From: Gammaproteobacteria bacterium
Lineage (GTDB): Bacteria; Pseudomonadota; Gammaproteobacteria; SZUA-229
Reading direction: 5' to 3'
NCBI GenBank assembly: GCA_015488295.1
Contig: WFOC01000010.1
Coordinates: 1-37,789, forward strand
DNA length: 37,789 nucleotides
A program made the position numbers and the translations under genes. Positions 28,760 through 37,789 of the stretch are shown piece after piece; position 1 is the stretch's first letter, and every line of letters begins with the position of its first letter. The notes under the pieces were generated by a model. The model was given only the letters and a program-made list of their open reading frames with translations. It did no database searches and was not told where the DNA came from.

Positions 28760-29557
28760 TCAACCCTCTTCTTTTAAACCTTCGTACAGATGCGTTGTAT
28801 CATTCATTAAAACCAGTAATTTGTCGGCCGACATTTTTACCATCAAAGGAATGTATTCACCATTTTTATGGTGCGAGCTGCGCTCAAACATGCCAAATTC
28901 TCTTTTTGCCTTATCAAGATTTTTGTTTATCTCTTCAGTGTTCAGGACCGATGCCCTTAGCTCCGCCAGCGCACCTTTAAACTCATTCATGGCGCGTGAA
29001 TAATCATCCGAATATTCCGAGCTGGTAAACCCCCAGCTTTGCAAGGTGTACAAATTTGCCAGCCTTTGTGAAAGCATGCGCTGACGACCAGAGATATTTA
29101 CCAGCTGACCTTTTTTTGTTTGCGACTCATCCTGTAACATTATCACCACACGGTGAGATTCCCGCAGCACATCTTCTGCCAGCATTCTGACTTCCTCGGC
29201 ATTCGAACGCTGCACCGGTGCACTAACAATATCTTTCAACGGCTCCCACACCTGCCTGACACGCTGAAGCTGGCGATGAATTTTTCCGGTCGGGCGAAAG
29301 GCATAAAGTTCTTCCAACTGCTCATCAAACAGGTCAATCGCTCTGCGCAGCTGGTGCCTGCTTTTTCGTGTCTGTATTTCCATGCCGATCTGGCTATAGG
29401 TCGCAACAATGCGCTGCGAAAGCATACGCTGCCGCCCTGCCTTATTTATTGCAGAAGAGATATCATAAATACCGGAAAAACCGGTCGAGGGCAAAAGTAT
29501 CAGCAGAGATAATATCGACAGCGAAAGGAAGCGTTTGACTATAACCATAAGTAACAT
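28760..29557 (-). CDS. stand-alone twin P-box (PilJ/NarX-type sensor domain) exported protein
   Basis: This 265-residue protein has an N-terminal signal segment (about residues 7-28). It contains two copies of the P-box-like motif, INKAGRQRMLSQR (residues 37-49) and VNISGRQRMLSQR (153-165), each starting a four-helix PilJ-type domain (PF13675 family). In NarX/NarQ this motif binds nitrate or nitrite, and in PilJ it is part of a chemoreceptor. Here there is no HAMP, histidine kinase or methyl-accepting domain, and no second membrane segment. It is therefore a soluble or once-anchored periplasmic protein that could bind a ligand but cannot signal on its own. No clear ribosome site precedes either ATG (29557 or 29548), so the start is uncertain by three codons. 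A possible FNR-like palindrome lies upstream. Confidence 0.8.
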   Translation of the reverse strand: MLLMVIVKRFLSLSILSLLILLPSTGFSGIYDISSAINKAGRQRMLSQRIVATYSQIGMEIQTRKSRHQLRRAIDLFDEQLEELYAFRPTGKIHRQLQRVRQVWEPLKDIVSAPVQRSNAEEVRMLAEDVLRESHRVVIMLQDESQTKKGQLVNISGRQRMLSQRLANLYTLQSWGFTSSEYSDDYSRAMNEFKGALAELRASVLNTEEINKNLDKAKREFGMFERSSHHKNGEYIPLMVKMSADKLLVLMNDTTHLYEGLKEEG

Positions 29558-29642: not shown

Positions 29643-29656
29643 TTGACCTAACTCAA
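29643..29656. promoter_or_regulatory. weak FNR-like palindrome upstream of the P-box gene
   Basis: TTGACCTAACTCAA keeps the TTGA-N6-TCAA core of an FNR/DNR site but misses the inner T and A of TTGAT-N4-ATCAA. A TATACT -10 candidate on the - strand (29610-29615) would place the site centre near -46.5 rather than the usual -41.5. The call is therefore tentative. Confidence 0.25.
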
Positions 29657-29726: not shown

Positions 29727-31490
29727 TTAGTTAACGTAAGTATAAGCGCCGCTGTCAGGCACAGCCTGGTAAGTATTGCCAATATAATCCATTGTTATTC
29801 CTGTGCCACCAGAACCCAGATTACGACACGAAGAAATACTGCTCAAAGAAAAATCATCCTCAGCCGGCCCGGCCAGAGCAACCGGCATATTCCCGATGCC
29901 ATTACTTTCAAACGCTGTCGCATTATTAAAATCGACAACGGTTGAATACGGCAAACCGTTATAAGCAAACATGTTTACATAATCGTTATAACAATTGTAA
30001 TTAATCGTGGCACTGGAAAACGCTGTAGAAAAAAACAGGTGCGTCATTGAAGCGCTGCCATAAAAAACATTGTTCAGAATTTCCAGCATCGAAAGTGAAC
30101 TGAAAACCGCAAGATTAATACCTGCGTTATCAACAAACGTATTGCGTGCCAGACGCAGACCTGCTGCAAATGGCGCGTTATATGAAAGACCATAATCGTC
30201 ATTTTTATAGATAAGCGAGGTCAGCAGCTCCAGCTTCAAACCAGTCGCATCGGCATCCGCCAGCCGGATGCCGGAACCCGCATTGCGATGCACTGAGATA
30301 CTTCGCATGCTAACAGCGCCACTCTCTCCCGCCAGAAAAAAGCCATCACCCGCCGAATCGGTTACATCCAGTTGCGACACACTGACACCACTCAAAACAC
30401 CGGCACCTTTGTCAGCCTTGATACGAACACCATAACCTTCACTACCATAACGCCTGCCGCTCCAGCCCTTACCCGCCGATGTTATCGACAAAGCCGTCAA
30501 ACCAACCCCGTCTATTCTGCTTTCTGCAGCACCACCATTGGACAACACCGACAGTTCAACACCCGCAAAACCACAACGGCTTACCCGGCTGTTTGCAAAA
30601 CGGATATCCCCAGCCAGCTGCCCGCTTTCAAAAGTCTGCACAGTCAGGCACGAATCAAACACATCGCTCACATCAACATTATCAACAACCCCGGCCGAAG
30701 AGCTATTGGCAAACTCAATACCATTACCGGCATAAAGATAATCCGGTGGCGACACCGGACTGGCCGCAAACACCGCACCACCGATATTTTTTATGCTGAT
30801 ATTTTCTGCGCTGCAGCGCGTACAGTTATTGAACTGAATGCCGTGCAAGCTGTAACCCTGAACAGTAATATTGCGCACATGAATATCGGATAAATTATTT
30901 GCCCGGACAGCAATTAATTTTTTACTGATACGATAAGGATTGTTTAATGCGAGCGGCTTTATAAACAGCCGGTTCATACCGTAGTCATATGTGTAACTTC
31001 CCGGCGGCGCGATGCCCAGCGTTGTCGCAACATCTGACTGCCACGCAACAAACTTCATCATGCCCACGCTGTCTTTTACATTTCCCAAACCTTCTCCAGC
31101 AGCAAGCACAGCATCATAAGCATAAATACCACCGCCAATATCACTGGAAATCATTACCGGCACCGCACCATCAAGCAGTGGCTTCGCCCCCGTTCCATAG
31201 GCATCCAGCACAAAATCATTTCCCGGTATCACCAGCGATTCAGACCAGACCTCATTACGCTTTAGATAAACAGTAGCACCGGCTGAAAGATCCACGCTTT
31301 CAATCTTTGCCAGAGTACGCCAGGCAAGCGCCTGTGATCGCCCATCATTTGCATCATCACCAGCACTGGCATCAACATAATATTCAGCCCGCCCCGCGCC
31401 CACGCTGACACCATCACCAGATGAGCCGCCACAGGAAAGCAGAAACATGCTCACCAGCATCAATACCGCAATAAAAACCCTCTTTTCCAT
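29727..31490 (-). CDS. right-handed parallel beta-helix lipoprotein
   Basis: The product is 587 residues from the ATG at 31490, chosen because GAGG precedes it and it opens directly with a lipoprotein signal, MEKRVFIAVLMLVSMFLLSC. The lipobox cysteine is residue 20 and is followed by a GGSSGDG linker. An in-frame ATG 10 codons upstream is less likely. The mature part begins AEYYVDASAGDDANDGRSQALAWRTLAKI, typical of DUF1565/pectate-lyase-like beta-helix proteins. It continues with many short strand repeats such as NITVQGYSLHGIQFNNCT and GNGIEFANSSSAGVVDNV. Such proteins often bind or cleave polysaccharides, but no catalytic set could be identified. It should be anchored to the outer membrane. 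It is divergent from the cytochrome gene. Confidence 0.8.
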   Translation of the reverse strand: MEKRVFIAVLMLVSMFLLSCGGSSGDGVSVGAGRAEYYVDASAGDDANDGRSQALAWRTLAKIESVDLSAGATVYLKRNEVWSESLVIPGNDFVLDAYGTGAKPLLDGAVPVMISSDIGGGIYAYDAVLAAGEGLGNVKDSVGMMKFVAWQSDVATTLGIAPPGSYTYDYGMNRLFIKPLALNNPYRISKKLIAVRANNLSDIHVRNITVQGYSLHGIQFNNCTRCSAENISIKNIGGAVFAASPVSPPDYLYAGNGIEFANSSSAGVVDNVDVSDVFDSCLTVQTFESGQLAGDIRFANSRVSRCGFAGVELSVLSNGGAAESRIDGVGLTALSITSAGKGWSGRRYGSEGYGVRIKADKGAGVLSGVSVSQLDVTDSAGDGFFLAGESGAVSMRSISVHRNAGSGIRLADADATGLKLELLTSLIYKNDDYGLSYNAPFAAGLRLARNTFVDNAGINLAVFSSLSMLEILNNVFYGSASMTHLFFSTAFSSATINYNCYNDYVNMFAYNGLPYSTVVDFNNATAFESNGIGNMPVALAGPAEDDFSLSSISSCRNLGSGGTGITMDYIGNTYQAVPDSGAYTYVN

Positions 31491-31608
31491 CAACAACCTC
31501 ACTCCAGACTGTGCAAACACCTACTTTACAATAGCCCAGAAAACAGTTTTTACTTCACTTCAGCGACCGGAAACACCCGATTAACCCTGCCCGGATTAAG
31601 TCATTTAA

Positions 31609-31650
31609 TTGAGTTCGATCAAGTTTATTGCATACCAAATCGGGTAGATT
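31609..31650 (+). promoter_or_regulatory. FNR-type site and -10 element before the pentaheme cytochrome gene
   Basis: TTGAGTTCGATCAA (31609-31622) matches the FNR/ANR consensus TTGAT-N4-ATCAA with a single mismatch. TAGATT (31645-31650) matches the -10 consensus at 4 of 6 positions. A start point near 31657 would place the site centre at about -41.5, the class II activation position. Activation under oxygen limitation is the prediction. Confidence 0.55.
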
Positions 31651-31682
31651 GATAGCGTGGTTCGGTTTTTGCCCCTCTCACA

Positions 31683-31705
31683 GGGCGAGCATTCGGTGCG
31701 CGCCC
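31683..31705 (+). other. stable hairpin in the cytochrome leader
   Basis: GGGCG (31683-31687) pairs with CGCCC (31701-31705), then an A/G internal mismatch, then GCA with TGC around a TTCGG loop. It lies between the predicted start point and the ATG at 31727. It has no T-run, so it is not a terminator. No known riboswitch class was recognised. Confidence 0.45.
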
Positions 31706-31726
31706 GGCTTACGGACTGGTGACACA

Positions 31727-32347
31727 ATGAAAACAGCAGGCAACCTCTTTTTTAATGCCGGCCTGATATGCTTGTTTTTTTTCTTTACGGGAATAACATC
31801 TGTATTCGGCAGCATCGCTGGTTCGGCACATGATTTCTCTAGTCAGGGATGGTCGGGCGGAAGAATCTGTCAGGTCTGTCACGCACCACACACAGCCGAC
31901 AGCGCCGCCACAGATGCCCCTCTGTGGAACCACGAAATAACCACATCAACCTTCACTATGTATAGTAGTCCGAGCATGGTCGTACAACCTGAATCACAAC
32001 CACTGGGCATAACAAAACTCTGCCTCTCCTGCCACGACGGAACCATCGCCGTCGACAGCTTTGCCGACAACTGGGGCAGCACATATATTTCCGGTACAGC
32101 AAACCTTGCCACAGACCTGTCCGACGATCACCCGGTAAGCGTCCGCTGGAAGCACCAGAACCAGACACCGTCATGCACAAACTGCCACTTTACACACGGC
32201 CAGATGTTTTCTTCCGAACTGCCATTCTTCAGCGGCTTCGTAGAGTGCGCCACCTGTCATGACGTTCACAACACCCTTACCCTGCCCAAACTGTTACGCA
32301 AACCATTGCAGCAGTCTGAATTATGTTTTTACTGCCATGGCAAATAA
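31727..32347 (+). CDS. pentaheme c-type cytochrome (doubled CXXCH family)
   Basis: The product is 206 residues from the ATG at 31727, chosen because it opens directly with a signal segment (NLFFNAGLICLFFFFTGITSVFG). The open frame reaches back 33 codons further, but that part is non-hydrophobic and reads as a structured leader. Five heme motifs are present: CQVCH (48-52), CLSCH (99-103), CTNCH (150-154), CATCH (174-178) and CFYCH (200-204). The phrases GSAHDFSSQGWSGGRICQVCHAPHTA and LGITKLCLSCHDGTIAVDS are typical of the doubled CXXCH/cytochrome c3-like family. It should be a periplasmic electron carrier. An FNR-type site upstream suggests expression at low oxygen. The Sel1 gene follows after 55 bases. 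Confidence 0.9.
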   Translation: MKTAGNLFFNAGLICLFFFFTGITSVFGSIAGSAHDFSSQGWSGGRICQVCHAPHTADSAATDAPLWNHEITTSTFTMYSSPSMVVQPESQPLGITKLCLSCHDGTIAVDSFADNWGSTYISGTANLATDLSDDHPVSVRWKHQNQTPSCTNCHFTHGQMFSSELPFFSGFVECATCHDVHNTLTLPKLLRKPLQQSELCFYCHGK

Positions 32348-32402
32348 GCAAACACCCCGACTCTGTCACAACAACAAAACCCGTATCACACAAGGCTTTA
32401 TC

Positions 32403-33014
32403 ATGAAATCTATCTCTGTCATCGTATGCTTAACACTCCTTACACTCGCACCTGCAGCATTTGCCGACACCTTCGAAGACGGCATGGCTGCGTTTGAAGC
32501 CCGCGAATATCAAAAAGCCCTGAACCTGTGGCAAAACCTGGCCGAACAGGGCGATGTAAACAGCCAGGTAAATATTGGCGAAATGTACGCCAGGGGACTC
32601 GGCGTAACACGCAACGCGACCAAAGCGCTGGAGTGGTTCAAAAAAGCAGCCGCCCAAGGCAGCGCCACCGCTGAATTCAACCTGGGCGAAATGTATGGTT
32701 ACGGTCACGGCATTCCCGTCGACCACAAACGCTCCATCGAATGGTATCGCAAGGCCGCACAGCAGGGACACACCAGCGCACGCTACAAACTGGGCGCAAA
32801 ATATTTCAAAGGAGAGGGCGTAGCTATGGATTACCTGATGGCTTACGCCTGGATGGACATGGCGGCCAAACAGGGATCAGGCCTTGCCGCCAACTACCGC
32901 GACCTGATCGCCTCGATACTCAAACCGGACGAACTGAAAAAAGCCACCGCTCTTGCCGACGAACTAAGCAAGCAGCTCACCGACCCGGTAAGTCACCAGC
33001 CAGACAACAATTAA
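32403..33014 (+). CDS. periplasmic Sel1-repeat protein
   Basis: The product is 203 residues from the ATG at 32403, selected because AAGG precedes it and a signal peptide follows (MKSISVIVCLTLLTLAPAAFA, 21 residues). The open frame upstream overlaps the cytochrome gene in another frame and is not used. Three Sel1-like repeats of about 36 residues are visible at about 53-88, 89-124 and 125-160. They are marked by NIGEMYARGLGV, NLGEMYGYGHGI and KLGAKYFKGEGV, each with a WFKKAA/WYRKAA helix. Sel1 repeats form alpha solenoids for protein-protein contact, so this is probably a periplasmic scaffold. It lies between the cytochrome and YcgR-like genes and is probably cotranscribed with them. Confidence 0.87.
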   Translation: MKSISVIVCLTLLTLAPAAFADTFEDGMAAFEAREYQKALNLWQNLAEQGDVNSQVNIGEMYARGLGVTRNATKALEWFKKAAAQGSATAEFNLGEMYGYGHGIPVDHKRSIEWYRKAAQQGHTSARYKLGAKYFKGEGVAMDYLMAYAWMDMAAKQGSGLAANYRDLIASILKPDELKKATALADELSKQLTDPVSHQPDNN

Positions 33015-33115
33015 AATTTCAGCAAAAACACCCGCACAGAAAAAATGTTTGGCTGGACTTTTTCCGAAAGCACTTCTATTCTTGCCCTATCTTTATACAG
33101 CCAGACAAGAAGCAC

Positions 33116-33844
33116 ATGGGCGCAAAAACACAAATCGACACATACCCGCCACTACCCGACAGCGATCACATAACCGGCACAGAAAAAATATCAAAATTTC
33201 TTCAGCGTTTTACCAAACACTACACGCCTCTCACCGTAAGAATACCGAACCACAAGCAGCACTATACCAGCTGCATTGTAAGCGTCGAGCAGGACCACCT
33301 TCTACTCGATGAGCTGCTGCCATCAACAGGCCACCAGCAACTGATCGAAGAACGCGCACTTATTGCCAGAGGCAAACTTGATGGCGTTGATATTCAGTTT
33401 GCCACAACCCTGCAGCATGCCGGCAACAAAGACAATCTGGTCACTTACTACATGGACATACCCAGTCTGGTGGAACACCGGCAGCGTCGCGAAACATTCA
33501 GGGCGCGCATTCCCGTGACAATGAAGCTACCGGTCTTCGTTGAAAACAAAAAAGGCGAGAAAGTTAAAGGCGAACTGCACAACCTGTCCTACGGTGGCGC
33601 AGGCATGATTATGTTACCGGACAAAACCATCATGGAAAAAGGTGCCATGCATAAATGTACCATCCAGCTTGCCAAAGATGAATGGATAGACTGCACCGTC
33701 GAACTGCGATTCGCGAAAAGTATTCCGGCACGCAACACGCAGTTTATCGGCACCCAGTTTATCGATCTTTCAGCAACTCAGTCGCGACTGATCGGTCGCT
33801 GCATCAACGAACTGGAACGAAGGCGTATCAGACAGGGGGTTTAA
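33116..33844 (+). CDS. YcgR-like flagellar brake / PilZ protein
   Basis: The product is 242 residues from the ATG at 33116, with AAGAAG upstream. An earlier open frame overlaps the Sel1 gene and has no support. The N-terminal half (about 20-118) resembles the YcgR split-barrel domain (HYTPLTVRIPNHKQHYTSCIVSVEQDHLLLDELLP). The C-terminal half is a PilZ domain with the c-di-GMP motifs intact: Arg125-x3-Arg129 (RRETFR) and Asn156-x-Ser158-x-x-Gly161 (NLSYGG). There is no signal peptide. YcgR-type proteins bind c-di-GMP and slow the flagellar motor or control other outputs; no flagellar gene is in the window. It is convergent with the metalloprotease gene and the two coding regions abut with no base between. 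Confidence 0.85.
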   Translation: MGAKTQIDTYPPLPDSDHITGTEKISKFLQRFTKHYTPLTVRIPNHKQHYTSCIVSVEQDHLLLDELLPSTGHQQLIEERALIARGKLDGVDIQFATTLQHAGNKDNLVTYYMDIPSLVEHRQRRETFRARIPVTMKLPVFVENKKGEKVKGELHNLSYGGAGMIMLPDKTIMEKGAMHKCTIQLAKDEWIDCTVELRFAKSIPARNTQFIGTQFIDLSATQSRLIGRCINELERRRIRQGV

Positions 33845-34627
33845 TCAGATGCGCTTGCGCCTGTAAAAACCCAGAACACCCAGCCCCGATAAAAACAGCA
33901 CTAGCGCCGGCGGCACAGGTACAACCGCCACCGAAAAATCGCTGGCAAGCGCTGTTGAAATCTGACTCGCATTTAAAAGCTGCCCGTCACTGCCAGAGTT
34001 CAGTAAATTATCTGTTTCAGTTGTATGACCCAGACCAAGGTTATGGCCGATTTCATGCGCCACCACACTGGCAATAACTTCCTGCCCGCCGGTAAAACCT
34101 AACAGATTACTGCCGACATACTGGGTAATACCATTATCATTAACAAATGCCAGACCGGCCGCCGAGTTTTCACTCAAAAGACTGAATCCAGCCGCAACAT
34201 TCACAAAATACATATTGATAACATTGGGGTCGGCACTCGCCACACCCGCAGCAATACCGTCAGCAACAATAGTATTCAAATCAGACGTTGGCCTGGTCAC
34301 TGTCGAAGAGCCTGAGCCGCTATTAGCAAAACTGCTGTTCCATGTATTCGCCGGCAAGAAATTAATATCAATACCAGCCTGCGCCCAGATATCATCGATA
34401 AAACCTTCAATAATTGATTGCTGAATATTATCGCCAAAAAATTCTGCGGTATTTGCGCCGCCATCATCAGAAACAATAATCGCCTGGACATTTACAGCTT
34501 CGGTAATCGGTAAGGAGGAACCAACCAGCAACGCGGCTGCCGCAGAAGAAACACTGCCGATGAAAAACAGTGCGCCTGCCAGAGAATTTTTAACCAGACT
34601 GCACTTAACCTGCTTTTTAGTATTCAT
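33845..34627 (-). CDS. secreted zinc metalloprotease with VPxPP-type C-terminal sorting signal
   Basis: This 260-residue protein has an N-terminal signal segment (about residues 14-33) and a metzincin-type zinc motif HEIGHNLGLGH (191-201). The residue after the zinc site that normally makes the Met-turn is not a methionine: the segment reads DNLLNSGSDG. The C-terminus is a tripartite sorting signal: VPVPP (236-240), a hydrophobic stretch ALVLFLSGLGVLGF, and the basic end YRRKRI. This resembles the VPLPA/PEP-CTERM class processed by exosortases. The protein is therefore predicted to be exported and then cut and released or linked to the cell surface. No exosortase is encoded in the window. AAGGGA precedes the ATG. 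The substrate is unknown. Confidence 0.82.
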   Translation of the reverse strand: MNTKKQVKCSLVKNSLAGALFFIGSVSSAAAALLVGSSLPITEAVNVQAIIVSDDGGANTAEFFGDNIQQSIIEGFIDDIWAQAGIDINFLPANTWNSSFANSGSGSSTVTRPTSDLNTIVADGIAAGVASADPNVINMYFVNVAAGFSLLSENSAAGLAFVNDNGITQYVGSNLLGFTGGQEVIASVVAHEIGHNLGLGHTTETDNLLNSGSDGQLLNASQISTALASDFSVAVVPVPPALVLFLSGLGVLGFYRRKRI

Positions 34628-36970: not shown

Positions 36971-37789
36971 CTAATCCTGCAGCAGGTGTGCGATGGTTTC
37001 ACCATAAAAGGTCTTGGCCACATCCCAGCTGCCGGGGTTGATGGCATCGACAATGTCGGCATAAACAATCATCGGACTCAGGCCGTCTGCATTATCATCA
37101 CCGGCATAACTCGGCGACCAGAAATTTCGATAAACACAGATCTCACCCTCAATATCTTCACGCAGGCCGTAGAAATCAGCGAATTTTTTCTGCTGCACAT
37201 CCGAAGAGAAATACAGGCTGATGGTTTCCGGCACCATAAACGGCGTTGATTTTGCCACCACCACTTCACCACCCCACAGTCCGTGAAAATCAGCCGGACT
37301 GGCTTTTTTCCACCAGTTGGCATCATCACTGGTATAACAAGCCAGAATCTGTTTTGGCCGCAGCTTTTCCAGATAACCGTCCACCCAGCGTTCATACAGG
37401 CGTTTCTTGTTAACCAGCCGGCGCTCACCTTCATCCAGAATGTAACCTGAAGCGTAGAGATCATCAATCACCGGCCCGACGCTGCCGAGCGCAATATTGA
37501 CCTTGTTTGAAATCTCACGGTACGAGGCCTGAAGAAACTGCGGCTGGTTAAAAACTGCAAAAATCAGCTTCAGACCGGCGGCATTAAACGCCCGCCCACG
37601 CACACGCTTGCTGCGCAGCTGGGTTGATTTTTTGCCTTTTACATACAGCTGAAACGGCCCGTTTTTAAACGAGGCATTACCGGCACAGTCCACAAATGAA
37701 ATCGAACGACGGCGAAGCTTTCCCACCATCACCGGATTAATAAAATCAGCAAACAAAACCGCTGGCGATGGCAGCGCCTTCATCTGTGC
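36971..37789 (-). CDS. AbiEi-family antitoxin-like transcription regulator (5' truncated)
   Basis: The frame stays open to the right edge; an ATG at 37783 exists but the true start may lie outside. The visible 272 residues show a winged-helix segment, FLQASYREISNKVNIALGSVGPVIDDLYASGYI. The C-terminal region contains TPFMVPETISLYFSSDVQQ and LSPMIVYADIVDAINPGSWDVAKTFYGETI, where YAD plus a Trp/Ala helix is typical of the AbiEi antitoxin family (PF09952/COG4861). In type IV systems AbiEi represses its own operon and counteracts the AbiEii nucleotidyltransferase toxin. No AbiEii gene follows it: the next gene is the phosphopantetheinyl transferase, 12 bases on. Orphan members of this family are known, so a toxin-antitoxin role is not established here. 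Confidence 0.65.
   Translation of the reverse strand, partial: AQMKALPSPAVLFADFINPVMVGKLRRRSISFVDCAGNASFKNGPFQLYVKGKKSTQLRSKRVRGRAFNAAGLKLIFAVFNQPQFLQASYREISNKVNIALGSVGPVIDDLYASGYILDEGERRLVNKKRLYERWVDGYLEKLRPKQILACYTSDDANWWKKASPADFHGLWGGEVVVAKSTPFMVPETISLYFSSDVQQKKFADFYGLREDIEGEICVYRNFWSPSYAGDDNADGLSPMIVYADIVDAINPGSWDVAKTFYGETIAHLLQD

Follow-up and report, generated by a model that had tools for sequence, protein, structure and literature searches.

A predicted class II FNR-type promoter upstream of a five-heme OmcE/UetA-like cytochrome gene in a gammaproteobacterium

A gammaproteobacterial gene for a five-heme c-type cytochrome is preceded by an FNR-type box and, at class II spacing, by a −10-like hexamer. 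Box and spacing are conserved upstream of related cytochrome genes, the encoded protein is homologous to the OmcE/UetA family, and the genome encodes Fnr. We regard the gene as probably belonging to an OmcE/UetA-type regulon under Fnr control, as a five-heme member detached from the main cluster and expressed from a low-oxygen class II promoter. Features of the window (the whole 37,789-nt stretch of DNA analysed) and of one related locus are listed in Table 1.

Table 1. Positions of the principal features; positions are those of the window except in the last row.
Feature	Position	Strand	Remarks
FNR-type box TTGAGTTCGATCAA	31609-31622	+	pattern match; boxes also upstream of homologous genes
−10-like hexamer TAGATT	31645-31650	+	22 bp after the box, the class II spacing
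Predicted transcription start	31657	+	arithmetic: box centre 31615.5 + 41.5, by the E. coli rule in an excerpt of PMC3688515
Pentaheme c-type cytochrome, OmcE/UetA-like	31727-32347	+	206 aa, intact, five CXXCH
Sel1-repeat protein	32403-33014	+	likely co-transcribed partner; same order beside the decayed G179 gene
YcgR-like PilZN-PilZ protein	33116-33844	+	likely ATG 33116; operon membership not supported
Right-handed beta-helix lipoprotein-like gene, divergent	29727-31490	−	ATG 31490, alternative GTG 31520
Decayed five-heme cytochrome gene, G179	L125:8282-8784	−	beside intact Sel1 gene, near 24-heme gene

Promoter architecture

The initial annotation had proposed an FNR-type box with one mismatch, and a −10 hexamer at class II spacing from it. 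Both were recovered, and the same spacing was learned independently from nine other promoters. Specifically, TTGAGTTCGATCAA departs from TTGATN4ATCAA only at position 5 (G for T), giving the half-site TTGAG in place of TTGAT, and the best hexamer of the window promoter between gaps 10 and 39 lies at gap 22. From the hexamer at this gap we infer the transcription start, which would place the box centre at about −41.5. There is no TTGACA-like −35 element (AAGTTT, AGTTTA and GTTTAT lie at spacers of 18, 17 and 16 bp, respectively), as expected because the activator covers the −35 region in such promoters.

Of 23 E. coli promoters that FNR activates directly and whose starts are known, 19 have the site at −41.5 ± 4 (PMC3688515, in excerpt). 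With the class II FNR promoters narG, dmsA, nirB and nrfA, as they appear in the same excerpt, the window promoter has in common a −10 hexamer, a box centred about 41.5 bp upstream of the predicted start, and the lack of a good −35 element; it differs in its TTGAG half-site and in a start taken from sequence. The window promoter is thus predicted to be an ordinary promoter of the class II FNR type.

The presence of CACAGGGC in the leader suggested a possible riboswitch, which was rejected. The + strand of the leader matched no Rfam family at the gathering threshold or at a relaxed one, and the leader folds no better than its shuffles (z 0.26).

Conservation of the box and spacing

For 15 other UetA-like genes (16 promoters with the window) we inspected the 300 nt upstream. 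In 11 of the 15 this stretch holds a box with no more than one mismatch, compared with 0.41 expected from shuffles, and in seven it is a perfect TTGATN4ATCAA; because the promoters are related, independence is overstated and these and the following conservation figures are inflated. Two further promoters, L065 and that of the cluster in the same genome (L056), keep TTGA-N6-TCAA with two mismatches, while L127 and L131 contain neither box nor core in the 300 nt.

The spacing is likewise conserved. Leaving the window aside, −10 scores in nine promoters average 3.52 at gap 22 (z 4.8), compared with an average of −2.44 and a maximum of −0.15 for the other 39 gaps; drawing gaps at random 200,000 times never gave so high a mean. 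At L065 and L057 the fit to gap 22 is poor, and four gammaproteobacterial loci outside the family of the window (L126, L128, L129 and L130) have the box and no good hexamer at this gap.

Alphaproteobacterial and Gallionella-type loci, a set that does not include L024, were examined apart from the 16-promoter count. All three Kiloniellaceae loci (Alphaproteobacteria) carry the box with TCTAAA, TATTAA or TTTAAT at gap 22; L020, L021 and L022 have no box. Boxes also precede six of seven seven-heme genes and all three six-heme genes of uet-like clusters. At the same loci, a box lies within 300 nt upstream of 20 of 77 multiheme ORFs, compared with 5 of 133 non-cytochrome ORFs. The promoter layout thus appears, from these comparisons, to be common to many related electron-transfer gene clusters.

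The 16-promoter count did not include in-operon paralogues (L055, L060, the second copy in L061, and L066), four-heme genes in L072-L074 that follow other genes of their cluster or sit at the end of a contig, or class hits with lower scores (L108, L115 and L119 among them). Three of the four in-operon paralogues have no box, and L060 has two-mismatch sites only.

Chance occurrence of the box

Could the box be a chance match, with the cytochrome gene using an unrelated promoter? Taken alone, the box is no commoner in the window than expected. Three sites with at most one mismatch were found in the whole window, compared with a mean of 2.0 in 100 shuffles, 34 of which held at least three, so that the window is not enriched; in the 300 nt upstream of the pentaheme gene, such a site arose in 1.15% of 2,000 shuffles. 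With its one mismatch, the box is also the weakest match of its set. A model built from the 13 other boxes gives it 10.8, below the 14.4-22.2 of the other boxes, and two other sites in the window outscore it. Against a chance match stands the combination of box and hexamer at the spacing learned from the nine homologous promoters. Only 0.56% of the hexamers of the window score as well as TAGATT, and box plus hexamer at one fixed gap would arise by chance in about 6e-5 of promoters, if the two are independent. The box alone is insignificant, and conservation makes the case; we consider a chance match quite improbable and retain the reading of a class II FNR-type promoter.

Across the whole genome, 225 sites have at most one mismatch, compared with 27 for the reversed pattern, a weak control because the reversed pattern contains TAG; perfect boxes number 18, compared with one for the reversed control. 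Among the 15 of 18 perfect boxes read in context, one lies upstream of a gene for an NrdD-like protein (over the NCBIfam cut-off), one upstream of a gene for an NrdJ-like protein (below its NCBIfam cut-off) and another precedes the seven-heme gene in the genome's own uet-like cluster; several others fall within reading frames. The NrdJ-like ribonucleotide reductase gene (L001:1637-3013, +) also matches the intein N-terminal family TIGR01445.

The window holds just one more TTGA-N6-TCAA core, TTGAGTTAGGTCAA (29643-29656, −), which lies 86 bp upstream of a gene for a PilJ-domain protein (28760-29557, −); no good hexamer was found 22 bp behind this core.

Candidate regulators

The genome encodes, on contig C7, an Fnr with CxxC-x5-C cysteines and a VETVSRL recognition helix, which we take to match the cluster cysteines and helix of E. 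coli Fnr. Its score of 257.8 bits exceeds the cut-off of 228 (NCBIfam NF008365).

The same layout might instead serve a CRP/FNR-family activator that lacks the oxygen-sensing cluster, such as a DNR-like sensor of NO, in which case the signal would not be oxygen itself. Candidates are present, as the genome also encodes Crp and further CRP/FNR-family proteins, of which those with E..SR helices (L012, L013, L014 and L015) could use the window box, and some boxes, including that of the genome's own uet-like cluster, are TTGAC/GTCAA-like. The perfect boxes among the homologous promoters and the full Fnr nevertheless argue against such an activator, which we judge unlikely; Fnr is preferred.

Near the UetA-like cluster of one Kiloniellaceae genome, L018 encodes a CRP/FNR-type regulator with an N-terminal cysteine cluster identified by eye (1791-2537, −).

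A five-heme relative of OmcE and UetA

The pentaheme cytochrome gene named in the initial annotation is intact, and its homologues support the assignment. The protein has a hydrophobic, signal-peptide-like N-terminus (by eye), CXXCH motifs starting at residues 48, 99, 150, 174 and 200, and seven histidines outside these motifs, of which His 35, 55, 135 and 181 are invariant in a seven-row alignment. Pfam and NCBIfam return generic multiheme matches only. Two solved structures match in sequence over almost the full mature protein, 7TFS (E 3.9e-19, residues 28-206) and 9YUQ (E 3.3e-17). The first of these is the Geobacter OmcE nanowire (PMC12954529, in excerpt). Homology to this tetraheme nanowire cytochrome extends along the mature protein; unlike OmcE, the window protein carries an additional motif, CTNCH, at 150-154. 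In the tree it groups with UetA-like proteins, and whereas the 22 intact homologues have four CXXCH motifs, it has five. For the family trait of an extracellular filament with hemes ligated between subunits, structure prediction gave a model without confidence (pLDDT 35).

The other homologous places in the genome number three, all on contig C20; two of them are proteins with four hemes, and the third is a segment of an eleven-heme protein. The C20 cluster also contains a pair of NHL-like genes for six-bladed propellers (Pfam check on one of the two), a barrel-like gene of 664 aa with no Pfam family match, and further multiheme and cytochrome b-like genes. The Uet (undecaheme electron transfer) pathway, as outlined in an excerpt of PMC10734462, comprises tetraheme UetA, NHL proteins UetHI, the barrel UetC and undecaheme UetJ, and Uet-type conduits are described there in cathode-oxidising Tenderiales and iron-oxidising Gallionella. 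Set against this outline, C20 has tetraheme, NHL, membrane-barrel-like and undecaheme genes. The correspondence makes the window gene, as judged from sequence, a stand-alone, five-heme UetA/OmcE relative. Specifically, the window protein is 44% identical to the product of the UetA-type tetraheme first gene of C20; unlike UetA, it has five hemes and is encoded alone, away from the cluster, next to a Sel1 gene. The cytochrome presumably takes part in extracellular electron transfer.

A decayed copy and the Sel1 partner

No intact five-heme orthologue was found among 116 relatives, 54 family genomes, 369 and 375 class genomes, 114 relatives of genome G179 or 398 phylum genomes; these sets overlap, and all except the 114 relatives of G179 list the genome under study itself. 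Two five-motif relatives, L110 and L111, were rejected as orthologues by position, because their extra motif precedes the DHP segment.

G179, from another family, contains a decayed five-heme copy with in-frame stops and shifted frames, in which the extra motif is kept (CSNCHFVHG). In the tree, a 92-aa piece of this copy groups with the window protein (100/99, on a long branch). The Sel1 gene that follows it is 45% identical to the window Sel1 over 189 positions. The same order in another family supports the cytochrome–Sel1 pair, which therefore either predates both genomes or moved together, and the two window genes are likely co-transcribed. A two-mismatch box-like site lies some 400 nt upstream of the recognisable cytochrome remains in G179. 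The two promoters align no better than shuffled sequences do (the score is reached in 77 of 300 shuffles), and thus the G179 locus is uninformative on the box.

Proposed mechanism

In the proposed mechanism, the box is predicted to bind an activator of the FNR family, with the genome's own Fnr as the likeliest candidate. At low oxygen, Fnr would bind at about −41.5, where the box would cover the −35 region of a class II sigma-70-type promoter. Bound Fnr would recruit RNA polymerase to TAGATT, and transcription would start near 31657. The transcript would contain the five-heme cytochrome gene and probably the Sel1 gene. Fnr binding, the start point, the oxygen response, co-transcription and extracellular electron transfer are predictions, whereas the box, the hexamer and its spacing, their conservation, the presence of Fnr and the homology are read from sequence. 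Low-oxygen control would then be common to the detached cytochrome and to the genome's principal uet-like electron-conduit cluster, which lies elsewhere.

A wider, tentative extension, which we hold as rather doubtful, is that the OmcE/UetA-type conduit constitutes an ancestral Fnr regulon of Alpha- and Gammaproteobacteria, from which this lineage may have split off a five-heme subunit with a Sel1 partner, yielding a pentaheme nanowire under the same switch.

No paper on Tenderia and FNR was found in a literature search whose coverage did not extend to the main Tenderiales paper. For FNR, multiheme cytochromes and extracellular electron transfer together, one paper was listed, on a small RNA in Shewanella; in Shewanella, the mtr genes are under cAMP/CRP (PMC8314016, in excerpt). 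If FNR-type control is conserved, Uet-type conduits would belong to a low-oxygen programme, and this control would offer a direct handle on the timing and the direction of their electron flow. With a five-heme OmcE relative, one could also examine how an additional heme is accommodated in a nanowire subunit. Follow-up is best directed at the conserved regulon and at the five-heme variant of OmcE/UetA.

Neighbouring genes

The initial annotation had placed both the Sel1 gene and the YcgR-like gene under the control of this promoter. The gene order in G179 and the absence of terminator-like sites on the + strand in 31400-34100 bear out the Sel1 part. The YcgR-like part was not supported, because homologues of that gene sit elsewhere without a cytochrome or Sel1 gene. 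Its six closest homologues (in G011, G012, G013, G015, G017 and G037) have different neighbours, with no cytochrome or Sel1 gene within about 1.5 kb on either side. In the window, 101 bp separate the Sel1 gene from its likely ATG. Because of the same lack of terminator-like sites, read-through from Sel1 into the YcgR-like gene is possible, without comparative support.

On the other side, the box lies between two divergent genes, and it might act mainly on the beta-helix gene, or repress it. The minus strand, however, has no good −10-like hexamer 22 bp beyond the box toward that gene, and the box-bearing homologous genes are cytochromes; we consider this very improbable, and the cytochrome gene remains the preferred target.

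Two further minus-strand genes of the window encode a Reprolysin-like metalloprotease (33845-34627; Pfam) with a PEP-CTERM-like tail recognised by eye, and a protein with an AbiEi-like antitoxin or regulator domain (36971-37783; PF09952).
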